64,000 nucleotides of DNA, taken from Betaproteobacteria bacterium Ga0077532 (GTDB taxonomy: Bacteria; Pseudomonadota; Gammaproteobacteria; Burkholderiales; Ga0077523). The translations under genes were made by a program, and so were the position numbers. The first letter of the stretch is position 1; each line of letters begins with the position of its first letter. Below, piece after piece: positions 29,427 to 35,935 of this stretch. Where the stretch lies: positions 128,333 to 192,332 of the forward strand of contig LNEE01000062.1 in assembly GCA_001464895.1 (NCBI GenBank), read 5' to 3'. A model generated the notes under the pieces. The model was not told the DNA's origin, did no database searches, and worked only from the letters and a program-made list of their open reading frames with translations.

Positions 29427-30938
29427 ATGAACTGCGCCGAGCGTCTCGTCAGCCTGTTCGGCACCCAGGCGGAAGTCTCACGCCGCCTCAAGCTCGACCG
29501 GGCCGTCGTCAGCCACTGGGTGAAGTCCGGCTACATCCCTGCACGGTGGGCCATGGAAGTGGAAGCCGTGTCGGAAGGTCGGATCGAAGCCGTAGAAATA
29601 CTGAACGAGGCCAATCGCCTCCGACCCGTGCGTGTGAAATCGCGCGGGGAGGACGAAGGCGTGTTCGGTTCCGCCATAACAGGGAGCGACATCATGAATT
29701 CATTCGCGCCGGCCAAGCGCATCCATTCCTTCCACCCGCCGCAGCGCACGCTGATGGGGCCGGGTCCGACGGAAATTCATCCGCGCGTGTTGACCACGAT
29801 GAGCCAGCCGGCCATCGGGTACCTCGACCCGGTGTTCGTCGAGATGATGGAAGAGCTGAAGAGCCTCCTCCGCTACGTCTACCAGACGAAGAATGCGCTG
29901 ACGTTCCCGGTCTCCGGCCCCGGTTCGGTGGGCATGGAGTACTGCTTCGTGAACATGGTCTCGCCCGGTGACAAGGTCGTGGTCTGCATCAACGGCGTGT
30001 TCGGTGGCCGGATGCTCGAGAACGTCATCCGCTGCGGTGGTGTGCCGGTCGTCATCGAGCACGAGTGGGGCACGCCCGTCGACCCGCAGCGCCTGGAGGA
30101 CACCCTCAAGGCGAATCCGGACACGAAGATCGTCGCGTTCGTGCACGCCGAGACATCCACCGGTTGTCTGTCGGACGCCAAGACGCTCGTCGAAGTGGCG
30201 CATCGCTACAACGCCCTCACGATCGTGGACGCGGTGACGTCGCTCGGCGGCGTCCCGGTGCTGGTCGATGAATGGGGTGTGGATGCCATCTACTCCGGCA
30301 GCCAGAAATGCCTCTCCTGCACGCCCGGTCTGTCGCCGGTGTCGTTCAACGAGCGCGTCGTCGAGCATGTGAAGGCCCGCAAGGACAAGATCCACAGCTG
30401 GTTCATGGACATGAACCTGCTGCTCGGTTACTGGGGCGCCACGAACCGCACGTATCACCACACCGCGCCGACGAACTCGCTGTTCGCACTCCACGAAGCG
30501 CTGCTGCTGATCCGAGAGGAGACGCTCGAAGACTGCTTCGCGCGCCACCGCCGCCATCATCTGGCGCTGAAGACCGGCCTCGAGGCGATGGGTCTCCACT
30601 TCCTCGTGAAGGAGGAGTACCAGATCCCGCAGATGAACGCCGTGCGCATCCCCGAGGCGATCCAGCCGAAGGAAGCCGAGGTCCGCAAGCGTCTGCTGAA
30701 CGAGTTCAACCTCGAGATCGGCGCCGGCCTCGGTCCGCTCGCCGGCAAGATCTGGCGCTTCGGCACGATGGGCTACTCGTGCCGGCCGGAGAACGTGATG
30801 CTGTGCCTCTCGGCCCTGGGTTCCGTCATGTCGGACCTCGGGATGCCAGTTCACGTCGGCGACGCCGAAGCGGCAGCGCACGACGCCTACGCCCAGATGC
30901 ACAAGCACGCAGCCCTGCAGAAAAAGCGCGTCGCCTGA
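29427..30938 (+). CDS. HTH (YdaS/Cro-like) domain fused in frame to a serine/alanine-glyoxylate aminotransferase
   Basis: One uninterrupted 503-codon frame. Residues 1-75 form a helix-turn-helix of the YdaS/Cro type (FGTQAEVSRRLKLDRAVVSHW, then VKSGYIPARWAMEVEAV). After a polar linker a complete class V PLP aminotransferase begins at M90, with MGPGPTEIHPRVL and the PLP lysine K294 (SGSQKCLSC). An ATG at 29694 with GGGAG upstream gives exactly the usual enzyme N-terminus and a 414-residue product (PLP Lys at 205). Two products, a DNA-binding enzyme and a free enzyme, are therefore possible. The likely enzyme role is glyoxylate amination; which amino donor is not decidable. Confidence 0.87.
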   Translation: MNCAERLVSLFGTQAEVSRRLKLDRAVVSHWVKSGYIPARWAMEVEAVSEGRIEAVEILNEANRLRPVRVKSRGEDEGVFGSAITGSDIMNSFAPAKRIHSFHPPQRTLMGPGPTEIHPRVLTTMSQPAIGYLDPVFVEMMEELKSLLRYVYQTKNALTFPVSGPGSVGMEYCFVNMVSPGDKVVVCINGVFGGRMLENVIRCGGVPVVIEHEWGTPVDPQRLEDTLKANPDTKIVAFVHAETSTGCLSDAKTLVEVAHRYNALTIVDAVTSLGGVPVLVDEWGVDAIYSGSQKCLSCTPGLSPVSFNERVVEHVKARKDKIHSWFMDMNLLLGYWGATNRTYHHTAPTNSLFALHEALLLIREETLEDCFARHRRHHLALKTGLEAMGLHFLVKEEYQIPQMNAVRIPEAIQPKEAEVRKRLLNEFNLEIGAGLGPLAGKIWRFGTMGYSCRPENVMLCLSALGSVMSDLGMPVHVGDAEAAAHDAYAQMHKHAALQKKRVA

Positions 30939-31003
30939 GCGAACTGCGCGCCCGCAGGTCGACCGGCTGTTCAACCGGCAGTCGACTGGAAAGTCACGGA
31001 GAG

Positions 31004-31028
31004 CGGCGGACCCTGGTCCGCCGTTTTT
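31004..31028 (+). terminator. Rho-independent terminator
   Basis: CGGCGGACC, loop CT, GGTCCGCCG followed by TTTTT. A perfect nine-base-pair GC-rich stem with a T run, 65 bases after the stop of the HTH-aminotransferase gene. It is the clearest intrinsic terminator in the window. Confidence 0.92.
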
Positions 31029-31142
31029 CGTTTGGAGGCTCGTGCGCCGGACGGATGACGCGGCACCGATCTTGCGAAGTGTGAGACGGCGCGCATGCCA
31101 TGGTACTTTCCGGCCGCGCGCATTTCAGGAGCAGATTCCCCC

Positions 31143-31955
31143 ATGAATTCCCTCGGACGACGTACGCTCGTCGCGCTCGCTTTTGGTCTTGCGACCACGG
31201 CGACGCGCGCCGAAGTGGTGCTGTATGCGAACGACTTCGAGACCGCGATCGGTCCCGAGTGGTCGAGCACCTCGACCTACGCCTGGGGACTCCAGCAGAC
31301 GCCGGCCGACGACATCGGCGGCGGATTCCTCGGCTACTTCGGCGGCAACAACGCGACGACGCTCACGCTGACGAACCTTCCGTCGGGCCTCCCCAGCCTC
31401 ACGCTCGAGTTCGATGCCTATCTGATGTGGTCGTGGGACGGCGAGGACACCCGACCCGTCGACGGTGTGCCCCGCGGCCCTGATCGGTTCGGGTTCCGGA
31501 GCGGCGCGGGCAACAGCTTCGACATCGGGCAGTCCTGGACCTTCAGCCACGGTAGCGCGGCCACCGGATTGCAGTCGTTCTGCGGCGACATTGTCGCGCC
31601 GTGCGCGCCGACCACCGGGGCCCTGTCCCGATACACGCTCGGCTACCGTTTCGAGATCGTGCCGACCGAGGAGGACCTCGACACCACCGGCGCGGCCCCC
31701 ATGGATTCCGTCTACCGGTTCGCGTGGACGGAAGCCCACGACGGTGGCACCACCGCGTCGTTCACCTTCTTCAGCGCCGGCTTGCAGGTGCGGCCGGATC
31801 TCGATTTCCCGTACCTCGACGAGGCCTGGGGCCTCGACAACGTCCGGGTCATCCACACGCCCGTGCCGGAGCCAGCAGCGTCAGCGCTTCTGGCGCTCGG
31901 TCTGGCGATGCTCGCCGTCGTCCACCGACGCAGCAGACGTCGCGACGCTTGCTGA
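31143..31955 (+). CDS. PEP-CTERM sorting-domain protein
   Basis: Exported protein of 270 residues. It has a signal peptide (LGRRTLVALAFGLATTATRAE), a beta-rich body with DFETAIGPEW and several Gly/Asp-rich turns, and ends in the PEP-CTERM signal: VPEP motif, hydrophobic segment AASALLALGLAMLAVV and Arg-rich tail HRRSRRR. Such proteins are processed by an exosortase, which must be encoded elsewhere, and are linked to exopolysaccharide matrix. The ATG at 31143 has AGGAG about 11 bases upstream. It lies 68 bases before a cellulose-synthase-like gene, which fits a matrix role. The body matches no family I can name. Confidence 0.85.
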   Translation: MNSLGRRTLVALAFGLATTATRAEVVLYANDFETAIGPEWSSTSTYAWGLQQTPADDIGGGFLGYFGGNNATTLTLTNLPSGLPSLTLEFDAYLMWSWDGEDTRPVDGVPRGPDRFGFRSGAGNSFDIGQSWTFSHGSAATGLQSFCGDIVAPCAPTTGALSRYTLGYRFEIVPTEEDLDTTGAAPMDSVYRFAWTEAHDGGTTASFTFFSAGLQVRPDLDFPYLDEAWGLDNVRVIHTPVPEPAASALLALGLAMLAVVHRRSRRRDAC

Positions 31956-32023
31956 GCATCAGTCGCACCGATGTCCACGATGGGCCGAAGTGGCGTCCAC
32001 GACGCTGAAGAATCGATGACGGC

Positions 32024-34258
32024 ATGCCGCGCTCCCTGACGATCGACCCGCTGACGGACCTCCCCCCGCCGCCCGACGCCCCCACGCTCGAAACGCTCTC
32101 CCGACCACGCCAGGCACTCGTCGCCGTCTACGTGATCGTCGCGTTCTGGTATCTGCTCTGGCGTCCCGAGACTTTCAACGTCGCAGCGCCGTGGTTCTCG
32201 CGGCTCGTCTACGCGGGCGAGGTGTTCGGCTTTGTCACGGCGTTGCTGCACATCCACATGGTGTGGCGGCTGTCGGTGCGCGAAGCGCCCGCGGCGCCGG
32301 CGGGCCTCGTGGTCGATGTGTACGTCACCACCCGCGACGAGCCGGTCGAGATGCTGCGCCGGACGCTGGTCGCCGCGACCCGGATGTCCTACCCGCACGT
32401 GACCTGGCTGCTGGACGACGGCAACCGGCCCGCCATGCGCGCTCTTGCAGCCGAGCTGGGGGTGCAGTACCTCGCCCGCGAGCAGCATCGGCACGCGAAG
32501 GCAGGCAACCTGAACCACGCCCTGTCTCGCACGCTCGGCGACTACATCGCCGTCTTCGATGCAGACCACGCCCCGGCGCGCGACTTCCTGACCCGGACCC
32601 TCGGCTACTTCCGGGACGCGCGTGTCGCATTCGTATCGACGCCGCAGGACTTCTACAACCTCGACTCCTACCAGCATCGCAACGACGCGCAGACCCGCCT
32701 CGTCTGGAACGAGCAGTCGCTGTTCTTCCGCGTGATCCAGCGCGGCAAGGACGCCACGAACAGCGCGTTCTTCTGCGGCACCTGCGGCATCCTCCGCCGC
32801 AAGGCACTGGACGACATCGGCGGTTTCGCCGTCGACACGGTCACCGAGGATCTCGACACCTCGGTCCGCATCCACCGCAAGGGATGGCAGTCGGTGTACC
32901 ACGCCGAGCCGCTCGCGTTCGGGATCGCCGCCGCCGACATCGTGCCGTTCGTACGGCAGCGGGTGCGCTGGGGCCAGGGCGCCATGCAGGTGCTCAGACG
33001 GCACGGCTTGCTGCTGTTCGCCAGCGGGCTCACTGTGCCCCAACGCCTCAACTACTTCGCCAGCACCATCATGTACTTCGACGGCTGGCAGAAGGCCCTC
33101 TTCTATCTCGCGCCGGCGATCGTGCTGATGACGGGTGCGATGCCGATCAGCCAGCTTTCGTGGGAGTTCGTCCTGCGGTTCGTGCCGTACTACCTGCTCA
33201 CGTTCTGGGTGTTCGAGGAGGTGGGCCGCGGCTACGGGCGCGCGCTCGATGTCGAGCGATACAACATGGCGCGCTACGGGGCCTTCGTGTGGTCGACCCT
33301 CGGCCTGCTGCGGCGACGACTCGCATTCCGCGTCACGCGGAAGCATCGGAGTCCCGACGACGACCGCGTGGGCCGTCGCTTCCTGTGGCCGCAGTGGGCC
33401 GTCCTCGGCATGAACGCCGCGGCGATTCCCGTGGGTCTTCTTCTCCAGACGCTCGGGGTCATCGCCCTGCCCACGGCGGCGCTGATCGCGAACATCTTCT
33501 GGGCGCTGGTGAACGTGGTCCTCGCGCGTGCCGTCGTCGGCTTCACGCGTCGCGTTTCCGGATTCCACCGCCGCGAGTATCGGTTCCGCATCCCGCTGCC
33601 CGCGCTGCTGTCGGGAGACTCGCGTCATCCTCACGCAGGGATCCTCGACGACGTGTCGGCCGAAGGCTTCAAGTACTACGGGCGCTTCCCGGCGAACACG
33701 GCGCCCGGCGACACGGTCGCGGGGGAGATCCTGCTTCCGAGCGGACGGATGCCCTTCCGTGCCACGGTCTGCGCGTGCTTCCCAGGGCCGAGGGACGGCG
33801 ACGTGCGGGCCCTCGGTTGCCGGTTCGACTGGACCGCCGCCTCCGACGCGGACGAACTGATCGCCTTCCTGTACGGCTCAGATCTGCAATGGAAACTGAA
33901 TCGCCTGAGCGACCGCTCGCGCACCCCGCTCGAGCGGTTCATGCGATGGCTGCGCCGGCCGTCTCGATCGGCGCCGGAGGCCCCGGACGCGCCGTGGGCC
34001 GCCGCCGTTGTCCGCAGTGCGGACACGCCGGATGGCGGGATGCACCCGGGCATTGTCTCGGTCCCCTCGGCGACGGATGACGAACGCACGCTCGTCGTGT
34101 TCCGGCGGATGGCGGCTCGGGAGCGCCTGGAGATCCTCGTCACGACGCGGGCGGGGACCTCGATGCTGCGGACCCGCGCCATCCTGTTCGACGCGATGCT
34201 CGCGAGCGGGACGCCGCTGTATCTCTACCGGTTGTCTCCCGCGGGGGAACTGCTATGA
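32024..34258 (+). CDS. bcsA: Cellulose synthase catalytic subunit-like GT2 glycosyltransferase with PilZ domain
   Basis: Processive membrane glycosyltransferase of 744 residues. Two N-terminal membrane segments (about 30-80) precede the GT2 domain with all BcsA motifs: DDG (131-133), DAD (179-181), FFCGT (249-253), TED (274-276) and QRVRW (312-316). Further membrane segments follow (about 345-505). A PilZ region has RREYR (RxxxR) and DVSAEG (DxSxxG, about 542-548), so binding of cyclic di-GMP is expected. Its stop overlaps the next gene (ATGA). No bcsB, bcsZ or bcsC is adjacent, which is unusual. Confidence 0.88.
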   Translation: MPRSLTIDPLTDLPPPPDAPTLETLSRPRQALVAVYVIVAFWYLLWRPETFNVAAPWFSRLVYAGEVFGFVTALLHIHMVWRLSVREAPAAPAGLVVDVYVTTRDEPVEMLRRTLVAATRMSYPHVTWLLDDGNRPAMRALAAELGVQYLAREQHRHAKAGNLNHALSRTLGDYIAVFDADHAPARDFLTRTLGYFRDARVAFVSTPQDFYNLDSYQHRNDAQTRLVWNEQSLFFRVIQRGKDATNSAFFCGTCGILRRKALDDIGGFAVDTVTEDLDTSVRIHRKGWQSVYHAEPLAFGIAAADIVPFVRQRVRWGQGAMQVLRRHGLLLFASGLTVPQRLNYFASTIMYFDGWQKALFYLAPAIVLMTGAMPISQLSWEFVLRFVPYYLLTFWVFEEVGRGYGRALDVERYNMARYGAFVWSTLGLLRRRLAFRVTRKHRSPDDDRVGRRFLWPQWAVLGMNAAAIPVGLLLQTLGVIALPTAALIANIFWALVNVVLARAVVGFTRRVSGFHRREYRFRIPLPALLSGDSRHPHAGILDDVSAEGFKYYGRFPANTAPGDTVAGEILLPSGRMPFRATVCACFPGPRDGDVRALGCRFDWTAASDADELIAFLYGSDLQWKLNRLSDRSRTPLERFMRWLRRPSRSAPEAPDAPWAAAVVRSADTPDGGMHPGIVSVPSATDDERTLVVFRRMAARERLEILVTTRAGTSMLRTRAILFDAMLASGTPLYLYRLSPAGELL

Positions 34259-34974
34259 AGATGCCGAACACCTGTCTCCTCGCACTGAGCGGCCTGCTGC
34301 TCTCGGGTGCGACGCTGGCGCGGGACATCACCTTGCTGACCGGTGCGGAGGTCCGGCGGAACGACGAGTACTACGCGTACCTCGGGGCGCTCGTCCCGCT
34401 GCGCAGTTCGGACCGGCTGGGTGCCGGGTGGGTGCAGCGCTACTGGATCGACGGGCTCAACTATGGTTTCGACGTGTCGGACCCCGCGCGCTTCGCCACC
34501 GACCCGCAGAACATCCGGGCCCGGGCCCTTGGTCTGGAGGCGGCCCTCGGCTACCACCTCAGGGACGACCGCGGCGGGGTGGCGGCGTACCTCGGTTTCC
34601 GGCATCAGCAGTCGACGCTGTCACCCGACGTCCCGGACAGCCGGGTGCGCGGATCGCAGTGGTGGCCGAGGGCGCAGGTGGAGGTGGATGCCCGGCTCAC
34701 GGCCAAGGTGCACGCCTACGGCATCGTCGCCTACACCTTCGGGATGGACGGGTACTGGTCGAGGCTGCGCGTGATGCACGATCTCGGTGGCCTCGAGGTG
34801 GGTCCCGAGGCGATCCTCCAGGGTGACCGCGACTACCGCGCCCGGAAGGTGGGGCTGGTGACGACCGGCCTGCGCCTGGGCGGGAACCTCACGATGGGGC
34901 TGCGCGCCGGTTATCACTTCCAGGCCAACGCGAACTCTCCGTACGTAGGCGTCGAACTCGCGCTGGGCCTCTGA
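34255..34974 (+). CDS. Cellulose biosynthesis BcsS-like outer-membrane protein
   Basis: 239 residues with a signal peptide (CLLALSGLLLSGATLARD) and a body of alternating amphipathic strands ending in an aromatic-poor but strand-like terminus VGVELALGL, consistent with a small outer-membrane barrel. Segments such as EVRRNDEYYAYLGALVPL, WVQRYWIDGLNYGF and ALGYHLRDDRGGVAAYLGF resemble the BcsS family encoded beside bcsA in some proteobacteria. The 4-base overlap with bcsA supports a joint role, perhaps in glucan export. The family call is from pattern recall and is moderately sure. Confidence 0.68.
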   Translation: MKMPNTCLLALSGLLLSGATLARDITLLTGAEVRRNDEYYAYLGALVPLRSSDRLGAGWVQRYWIDGLNYGFDVSDPARFATDPQNIRARALGLEAALGYHLRDDRGGVAAYLGFRHQQSTLSPDVPDSRVRGSQWWPRAQVEVDARLTAKVHAYGIVAYTFGMDGYWSRLRVMHDLGGLEVGPEAILQGDRDYRARKVGLVTTGLRLGGNLTMGLRAGYHFQANANSPYVGVELALGL

Positions 34975-34992
34975 CGCGGTGAGACACCCGCA

Positions 34993-35024
34993 CCGCCACC
35001 CCGGAATCGGGCTCGGGATGGCGG
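34993..35024. terminator. Stem-loop between convergent genes
   Basis: CCGCCA, mismatch, CCCG ... CGGG, mismatch, TGGCGG with a 10-base loop. It lies between the bcsS-like stop (34974) and the protease stop (35042) and probably serves both strands. No T run. Confidence 0.45.
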
Positions 35025-35041
35025 ATGCAGGGGTCGCTTCC

Positions 35042-35935
35042 TCAGTCCAGCTTCGCCGTCCTGAGTGCCTTCACCGCAGCAGCGAACCGGGCCTCGTTGC
35101 GGGGCTGGGCCTCGAAGCGGGTGAAGTTCTCGCCCATCGCTTCCCCCAGCCGGTCGAGGCGCTGACCGGGGTTGGGGTGGGTCTTCGTCAGGAGTGCGAG
35201 GTAAGGATCGTCGCCCTTGATCTTGCCGAGGGTCTGCAGCGCGCCGGCGAGACCGTAGGGATCGTAGCCAGCCCGAGTGGCCAGCACCACGCCGACGCGA
35301 TCGGCCTCGTACTCGTCGTCCTTGTCGAGGCCTCGCGAATAGAGCTCCTTGGTGGGCCCGACGAGGGCATCGACGAGCGCACCACCACCCTTGCCGGCCG
35401 TCGCCGCGCTGGCCCCGGCACCGAGAAGATTCGTCCAGGCGCCCTTTTTCATGGCGTTCAGGTGATGCTTGCGCACGACGTGCCCCACCTCGTGACCGAG
35501 CACGCCCGCGAGTTCCGCCTCGTTCTCCAGGAGCCGCAGCATGCCGCGCGTCACGATGATGATCCCGCCAGGCGCCGCGAAGGCATTCACGTGGTCGCTG
35601 TCGTTGACGCCGAACCGCCAGGGCAGATCGGCCCGTTCGGACCGACTCGCAACCCACGCACCGACCTCGTTCACGTAGCGTTGCAGCGCCGGATCGTCGT
35701 GCAGAGGACGCGCGCCGAGGAGCGTCTCGGCGACGCCGCGACCCATCTCGATCTCCTTCGGCTGATCCACCGACCCGAAGGCGCCCTTCAAGTTGGAAGT
35801 GAGGCCGTCGACGCCCCCGGAGCTTTTCACGAAGGCGTCGATCTGTTTGGGATTGCAGGCCGCCAGAAGACCGATGGAAGCGGTGGCAGCCAGCACCCAG
35901 CCGGCGATGCGTTTGCGGTTCGGATGGCGGTCCAT
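35042..35935 (-). CDS. M48-family metalloprotease lipoprotein
   Basis: Zinc protease of 297 residues with a lipoprotein signal peptide (IAGWVLAATASIGLLAAC, lipid Cys at 27), so it is anchored in the periplasm. The zinc site is HEVGH (H148, E149, H152) with the third ligand E210 in DDEYEADRVGV. This matches the periplasmic M48C-like proteases (LoiP/YggG type) that clear misfolded envelope proteins. The ATG at 35935 shares one base with the SH3 gene stop (TGATG); a GTG one codon earlier is possible. It is downstream in a two-gene unit. Confidence 0.9.
   Translation of the reverse strand: MDRHPNRKRIAGWVLAATASIGLLAACNPKQIDAFVKSSGGVDGLTSNLKGAFGSVDQPKEIEMGRGVAETLLGARPLHDDPALQRYVNEVGAWVASRSERADLPWRFGVNDSDHVNAFAAPGGIIIVTRGMLRLLENEAELAGVLGHEVGHVVRKHHLNAMKKGAWTNLLGAGASAATAGKGGGALVDALVGPTKELYSRGLDKDDEYEADRVGVVLATRAGYDPYGLAGALQTLGKIKGDDPYLALLTKTHPNPGQRLDRLGEAMGENFTRFEAQPRNEARFAAAVKALRTAKLD

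Follow-up and report, generated by a model that had tools for sequence, protein, structure and literature searches.

A conserved BcsA-like synthase–BcsS gene pair without BcsB, with an associated PEP-CTERM protein, in Betaproteobacteria bacterium Ga0077532

Genomic locus and gene content

Betaproteobacteria bacterium Ga0077532 (order Burkholderiales) carries on contig LNEE01000062.1 of assembly GCA_001464895.1 three consecutive forward-strand genes for a PEP-CTERM protein, a BcsA-like glycosyltransferase family 2 (GT2) synthase with a PilZ domain, and a BcsS-family protein. The window analysed is the whole stretch of 64,000 nucleotides from position 128,333 to 192,332 of this contig, and coordinates below refer to it. 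The locus represents a conserved BcsB-free pair of synthase and putative porin with an associated surface protein, which forms a clade of its own and has scattered relatives. A preceding reading of the DNA, made from the letters only (the sequence-only reading), had described a synthase followed by a BcsS-like gene, with a PEP-CTERM gene 68 bases upstream; Pfam matches at 32024-34258 and 34255-34974 confirm the pair, and the PEP-CTERM gene, whose PF07589 match lies above the cut-off, is indeed separated from the start of the synthase by 68 bases (an alternative longer start of this gene is also open at 31095). The synthase and BcsS genes overlap by 4 bases. The features of the locus are:

31061..31076, + strand: sigma-54 (-24/-12)-like site CGGCACCGATCTTGCG, 82 nt before the PEP-CTERM start codon
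31143..31955, + strand: PEP-CTERM protein gene, 270 amino acids (PF07589, E 1.3e-4, 22.3 bits against a cut-off of 20.7)
32024..34258, + strand: BcsA-like GT2 synthase gene with PilZ domain, 744 amino acids (PF00535, E 8e-21; PF07238, E 6.3e-7)
32105..32278, + strand: two N-terminal transmembrane (TM) segments of the synthase (residues 28-46 and 67-85), equivalents of BcsA TM3-4 by hydrophobicity and alignment
32318..32980, + strand: GT2 catalytic domain of the synthase (residues 99-319; PF13641)
32636..32647, + strand: acceptor motif STPQ of the synthase, QTPH in BcsB-type synthases (His276 of Rhodobacter sphaeroides), by alignment
33569..33874, + strand: PilZ domain of the synthase (residues 516-617; PF07238) with RxxxR and DxSxxG motifs
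34255..34974, + strand: BcsS-family gene, 239 amino acids (PF17036 CBP_BcsS, E 8e-26, 91.5 bits against a Pfam cut-off of 24)

Conservation and phylogeny of the pair

Relatives were sought in 60 near genomes and in the order's 399 genomes, and by a single scan of named genomes. They comprise 23 distinct non-dead loci, i.e. the window, 16 loci numbered L019-L034, one each in genomes G031, G058, G172, G286 and G303, and G226 (G000 is the source genome; L019, L020 and L033 correspond to G006, G002 and G395); a fragment at a contig edge (L041) stands outside the 23 loci and both trees. The synthase of G226, the most divergent on the tree, narrowly misses the E 1e-100 limit applied order-wide.

In 21 of the 23 loci the synthase is followed on its own strand by a gene for a BcsS-sized protein; a BcsS confirmed by Pfam directly follows the synthase in 16, and the BcsS-sized neighbours in L023, L027, L028, L029 and L030 gave no Pfam match to BcsS. 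An overlap of exactly 4 bases was found in 9 of 19 measured synthase–BcsS pairs. Across the order, PF17036 occurs in eight of 399 genomes, and since all eight genes adjoin such a synthase, the pairing is not a matter of chance. Of the nine order genomes whose live synthase reaches E<=1e-100, seven have BcsS, versus one of the 390 others, where the BcsS gene likewise adjoins a divergent synthase.

In a quick maximum-likelihood tree the synthase family forms one clade (SH-like approximate likelihood ratio test, SH-aLRT, 99) that takes in two dead paralogues, with BcsB-type BcsA as a second clade (SH-aLRT 96) and CrdS/BgsA as a third (SH-aLRT 99); the window synthase lies outside the CrdS/BgsA clade, and the positions of the long branches L070, L122 and CrdS are unsure. 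A second tree left out L033, which is cut by a contig end, and L039, the fastest dead paralogue; the G172 synthase is outside both trees. Articles are cited here by PMC number for the parts of their text that were available. By its description, the family may be clade 4 of PMC6821405 ('unknown function', with members from alpha-, beta- and gammaproteobacteria).

The pair was also seen on contigs labelled as other phyla, namely L024 (Nitrospina) and L034 (Aquificaceae); these represent horizontal transfer or misbinned contigs.

Absence of bcsB and bcsC

No bcsB, bcsC or bcsZ gene was found within six genes on either side of the pair, as the sequence-only reading had stated; bcsZ was not searched genome-wide. 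The source assembly (4.93 Mb, 62 contigs, 89.8% complete) gave zero matches to BcsB (PF03170) and zero to the C-terminal domain of BcsC (PF05420, BCSC_C), which answers the genome-wide check that this reading had called for, and its proposal that the partner is encoded elsewhere fails for BcsB itself. Both were likewise not found in G006, the closest relative, whose synthase is 94% identical and whose genome is 99% complete. Nor did the source genome hold a full operon elsewhere beside a decayed copy at this locus, the finding that the reading had set against its own proposal.

The BcsB search covered 20 genomes, of which G037 holds just a dead copy and the other 19 a live synthase, and left out G172, G226, G286 and G303; BcsB was absent in 18 of the 19. 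The sole positive was Paraburkholderia madseniana (G071), which has a separate bcsQ-A-B-Z-C operon (L074) on another contig and also keeps an undamaged synthase–BcsS pair (L032); with a BcsB-free pair and a full bcs operon in one genome, it provides a natural test case.

Synthase sequence and BcsB dependence

The synthase contains all of the motifs sought (DDG, HAKAGN, DADH, FFCGT, TED, QRVRW, FRVTRK, RREYR and DVSAEG), and solved BcsA structures in the Protein Data Bank match it with E down to 7e-72. At the motif level it thus has the features of BcsA, i.e. GT2 D,D,D,QxxRW with the FxVTxK gating loop, and PilZ RxxxR with DxSxxG, in common with the canonical BcsA of BcsA-BcsB systems (Escherichia coli, R. 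sphaeroides). It differs from these by the absence of BcsB and of TM1-2, by xTPQ in place of QTPH, and by its score against the NCBIfam CelA model (TIGR03030) of 380 bits, below the equivalog cut-off of 699, with the match starting at profile position 56; two BcsB-type controls scored 897 and 842, CrdS 336 and BgsA 407. Of the 'complete BcsA' of the sequence-only reading, the GT2 and PilZ domains and intact motifs therefore stand, and the completeness does not, because the first two TM helices are missing and the CelA score falls short.

The synthase has two N-terminal TM segments (Kyte-Doolittle peaks of only 1.42 and 1.49) where BcsA has four, and its alignment to BcsA chains begins only at residue ~203 (E. 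coli) or ~78 (R. sphaeroides). The length before the GT domain is 40-110 amino acids, holding no more than two hydrophobic segments, in the family rows (contig-cut L033 excluded), and 121-255 amino acids with two to five segments in nine BcsB-type synthases. In the structure of the E. coli complex the tail anchor of BcsB sits in a groove of BcsA TM1-3 (PMC11470070), and the window synthase, as judged by alignment, is without part of this docking groove, its first two helices. The closest published analogue, likened by description, is RiGT2 (Cgs) of Romboutsia ilealis, a PilZ-bearing BcsA-like synthase without clustered bcsB and without the helix that coils with BcsB, whose product in yeast is a (1,3;1,4)-beta-glucan (PMC10374906); its host is Gram-positive and so has no outer-membrane porin, unlike the window system. 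On account of the missing N-terminal helices, the docking-groove structure and the RiGT2 parallel, the clade is probably independent of BcsB. That BcsA needs BcsB, as the sequence-only reading assumed, holds for canonical BcsA; here, the incomplete groove and the RiGT2 precedent (PMC10374906) speak against it.

Other related synthases are known. CrdS and BgsA share with the window synthase the lack of a neighbouring BcsB and Gln at R. sphaeroides positions 276 and 298 (and, with CrdS, Lys at 309), but have no PilZ motifs according to the available text of PMC6821405, fall into a separate clade, and are neighboured by hypothetical proteins in a CrdA/CrdC-like arrangement or by a HlyD-like protein. 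Cyanobacterial XcsA resembles the window synthase by description in being PilZ-bearing and without BcsB; for XcsA, the HlyD-like XcsB and TolC are proposed (PMC12430437), in place of a 12-strand barrel. The BcsA-like 'Orphan' of pseudomonads is also a GT2 outside the bcs operon, with a periplasmic GH17 domain and, in the part of PMC10237404 available, no PilZ, whereas the window synthase has PilZ and no Pfam glycoside-hydrolase match. Since BcsB-free synthases are already known, the present pair is a variant and not a wholly new kind.

Motifs are intact across the aligned BcsS-associated relatives, bar single changes (DDSR in L024, DLHSKG in L034); the N-terminus of the L033 synthase is missing at the contig end. 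In a separate alignment, the divergent G226 synthase has TRHRW for QxxRW, CVGT for FFCGT and WKSSAK for FxVTxK. The ratio of nonsynonymous to synonymous substitution (dN/dS) against L019 is 0.13 for the synthase, 0.20 for BcsS and 0.18 for the PEP-CTERM protein (0.03-0.06 for three neighbouring genes), well under 1, and all three genes are under purifying selection.

Several damaged synthases were also observed. In L073 (G172:C1:1223317-1225464, a one-contig genome) the synthase gene has one in-frame TAG and lies beside BcsS and a PEP-CTERM gene. Catalytically dead paralogues occur in L039 (8647-10881, G002), L040 (9740-11971, G037) and L076 (5621-7852, G097); DDG, QxxRW and other motifs are lost, and the reading frame remains open over ~743 amino acids. 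They have two separate origins on the tree, with a dN/dS of 0.14 between L040 and L076, and are possibly pseudo-synthases with a regulatory role.

Channel-entrance residues

Cellulose and curdlan synthases differ in listed residues near the channel entrance (PMC6821405). As references for the comparison, CrdS (L118) was picked by its three-gene setting and the exact CrdS residues of PMC6821405, and BgsA (L117) by its HlyD-like neighbour on pSymB. Position 276 (R. sphaeroides numbering) is Gln in 22/22 family rows, as in CrdS, and His in 9/9 BcsB-type rows; positions 298 and 309 are Gln and Lys, each in 21/22 family rows, again as in CrdS. Position 412 (Ala in 21/22) and position 480 (mostly Asn) are neither BcsA- nor CrdS-like. 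The window synthase thus matches CrdS at three of five positions (Q, Q, K; Ala at 412, Asn at 480), and because of these three matches its product may contain beta-1,3 linkages and not be plain cellulose. The suggestion in the sequence-only reading that the polymer is not cellulose gains from the residues held in common with curdlan synthase, and still falls short of demonstration.

BcsS barrel

BcsS was reportedly named by Romling and Galperin in 2015. No description of a BcsA-BcsS pair without BcsB was found in the literature searched, which did not cover that article. The AlphaFold2 model of the window BcsS (mean predicted local distance difference test, pLDDT, 86.5) has 12 strands and an N-terminal signal-like helix, and BcsS is predicted to be a 12-stranded outer-membrane beta-barrel. 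Its nearest folds are small barrels of the outer membrane, and several of these are channels for sugars or fibre proteins (KdgM, Z 18.4; VhGalP, 17.3; intimin, 17.1; FapF, 16.8; NanC, 16.7). The KdgM/NanC oligosaccharide porins are likewise 12-stranded and superpose over 168 residues (KdgM; root-mean-square deviation, rmsd, 2.9) and 174 residues (NanC; rmsd 3.3), but with 11-14% identity; with intimin and FapF scoring near KdgM, and at such low identity, these fold matches prove no function.

In six alphaproteobacterial genomes the BcsS gene immediately precedes bcsA, a large gene takes up the bcsB place, and bcsZ comes next; in the two genomes tested, the gene in the bcsB place is a Pfam-confirmed BcsB. 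None of the six has a BCSC_C match, and alphaproteobacterial bcs operons without bcsC exist (PMC7112194). The presence of BcsS where BCSC_C is missing fits a role of BcsS as outer-membrane exit porin.

A second set of PF17036 genes in alphaproteobacteria (L102, L104, L109, L112, L114 and L116) shares a non-cellulose neighbourhood; located away from bcs genes, these indicate that the BcsS family is wider than cellulose. A Sphingobium plasmid (L123, 3105-7481) encodes a 'hypothetical protein' of 1458 amino acids that has a match to a GT2 synthase; its gene lies upstream of one annotated wssE, and the protein may represent a fusion of BcsA and BcsB.

PEP-CTERM protein and candidate promoter

Full-length homologues of the PEP-CTERM protein (31-92% identity) were found in six relatives. 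The family (E<=1e-6) occurs in 11 of 22 distinct genomes (23 entries, of which G072 and G395 gave identical hits and were counted once), and in nine of the 11 it adjoins the synthase–BcsS pair, either upstream of the synthase (G000, G006, G002, G031, G172) or downstream of BcsS (G060, G061, G065, G395); in the other two it lies away from the pair (G062, other contig; G067, weak match). The link to synthase and BcsS that the sequence-only reading had suggested is thereby supported. In the order-wide search nine of 399 genomes match the PEP-CTERM profile; the six strong matches all adjoin a synthase, and the three weak ones (G011, G123, G159) are in genomes without a synthase. As four of the six strong matches had been used to build the profile, only G031 and G172 are independent. 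Exosortase was found in 15/23 entries, and the source genome has two, on contigs C8 and C31. The fold model of the PEP-CTERM protein is too poor (pLDDT 54) to point to a function or to serve for a fold search. A precedent is PepA, an RpoN-dependent PEP-CTERM protein that keeps polysaccharide bound in Aquincola flocs (PMC9850573).

The sigma-54-like site is the sole occurrence of GGCAC-N5-TTGC in the 64-kb window on both strands. L019, the relative with 94% identity, keeps the GGCAC and TTGC cores with a changed spacer; L020 has only a degenerate form. Upstream of the downstream-placed PEP-CTERM copies, L021 has a poor one, and none was found in L022, L026 and L033. With two mismatches allowed, the looser pattern occurs 11 times in the window where 20.5 occurrences are expected; taken by itself, the site is therefore not significant. 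A scan of 30800-35200 gave no sigma-70 promoter; the single terminator-like site that it returned lies in the synthase gene and is within chance. No PrsK/PrsR, the regulators that a sigma-54 promoter of a PEP-CTERM gene would lead one to expect, was seen by sequence motif in parts of C8, C31 and the window; no genome-wide search was made.

Interpretation and alternative explanations

On balance we slightly favour the view that the locus encodes a BcsB-independent, cyclic di-GMP (c-di-GMP)-gated beta-glucan synthase with BcsS as its outer-membrane channel and a dedicated matrix protein. The three genes, as a putative operon, would form one unit for a secreted beta-glucan matrix. The synthase, if catalytically active as its motifs suggest, would polymerise UDP-glucose in the cytoplasm and, with no need of BcsB, pass the chain through a membrane channel of its own, while c-di-GMP on the PilZ domain would open the gating loop; the BcsS barrel would form, or belong to, the exit of the chain in place of BcsC; and the PEP-CTERM protein would be exported, sorted by an exosortase, and bind or organise the same matrix. 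Transcription would probably start from the candidate sigma-54 promoter ahead of the PEP-CTERM gene. A stricter version, a minimal system of a c-di-GMP-gated GT2 synthase with neither BcsB nor any periplasmic co-polymerase, one 12-stranded porin, a non-cellulose beta-glucan (beta-1,3 or mixed) and a co-transcribed PEP-CTERM surface anchor under sigma-54 control, is offered as a tentative and rather doubtful proposal.

Several observations weigh against the favoured view. The five BcsS-sized neighbours without a Pfam match resemble the BcsS profile weakly (hhalign probability 34.5%), and G058 and G286 have a live synthase with no BcsS beside it. G000, G006 and G002 belong to one genus, so the counts are not independent, and the source genome is only ~90% complete. 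BCSC_C was found in three of 23 searched genomes (G064, G070, G071), where BcsS is thus not the sole candidate exit. At 14 of 23 loci no PEP-CTERM gene was seen next to the pair (some of the contigs are cut short), and no exosortase was found in G395, which has the PEP-CTERM family. RiGT2 showed neither binding of nor activation by c-di-GMP despite its PilZ motifs, according to the available text (PMC10374906).

With regard to the polymer, a possible though unlikely explanation is that the product is ordinary beta-1,4 cellulose, synthesised independently of BcsB, with BcsS and the PEP-CTERM protein as accessories and the entrance residues reflecting clade history. The catalytic motifs of the clade are those of BcsA, and plant CesA has Gln at the position of His276, yet its product is cellulose. 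XcsA, PilZ-bearing and without BcsB, is moreover reported as a cellulose synthase (PMC12430437). Against this, Gln276, Gln298 and Lys309 jointly fit CrdS and not BcsB-type BcsA, and the CelA score is as low as those of CrdS and BgsA. Somewhat less probable still is a non-BcsB periplasmic partner encoded elsewhere (e.g. a HlyD-like protein, as BgsB for BgsA) that links the synthase with BcsS or with a TolC-type channel; HlyD-like genes lie beside Sinorhizobium BgsA and its relatives, and XcsA has been modelled with a HlyD-like protein from another locus (PMC12430437), but no conserved adaptor gene was noticed beside the loci (adaptors were not searched genome-wide).

It is improbable that the PEP-CTERM gene is a chance neighbour: its fold model gives no readable function and the gene is unseen at most loci, yet full-length homologues adjoin the pair, on either side, in nine of the 11 genomes with the family, and the strong matches of the order, the independent G031 and G172 among them, are confined to six of 399 genomes and all adjacent. 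Very unlikely is BcsS as an activating subunit in place of BcsB, which the tight pairing with its frequent 4-base overlap might suggest; the model is an outer-membrane barrel behind a signal-like helix, BcsS coexists with BcsB in alphaproteobacterial operons, and two synthases have no neighbouring BcsS. The proposal of the sequence-only reading that BcsS replaces the periplasmic partner is thus unsupported, and BcsS as a BcsB substitute was rejected, the modelled 12-stranded barrel being unlike the membrane-anchored periplasmic BcsB. A decayed remnant of a bcs operon is scarcely credible: there are only two bcs-like genes, and dead paralogues exist in the clade, but frames are open, motifs intact and dN/dS low for synthase and BcsS, and the same pair occurs in many genera as a clade of its own; decay was rejected on the intact motifs and the dN/dS values.

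If the favoured view is true, the system would separate the essentials of processive beta-glucan synthesis and export from accessories, with no BcsB and a small porin for BcsC. It would give BcsS a role open to testing, that of exit channel, in this system and likewise in those alphaproteobacterial bcs operons that lack BcsC. One particular PEP-CTERM protein would be connected with one particular polysaccharide synthase, with relevance to what the abundant PEP-CTERM proteins hold. For this clade, the automatic label 'cellulose synthase' may mislead.

Neighbouring genes

A Pfam scan of the neighbours bore out the statement in the sequence-only reading that the flanking genes are unrelated to bcs, with an aminotransferase upstream, and an M48 peptidase and a SH3-domain protein downstream on the opposite strand. 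The class V aminotransferase (29427-30938, 503 amino acids) carries an in-frame N-terminal YdaS/Cro-like helix-turn-helix stretch, which scores below the Pfam cut-offs and is also present in L019.

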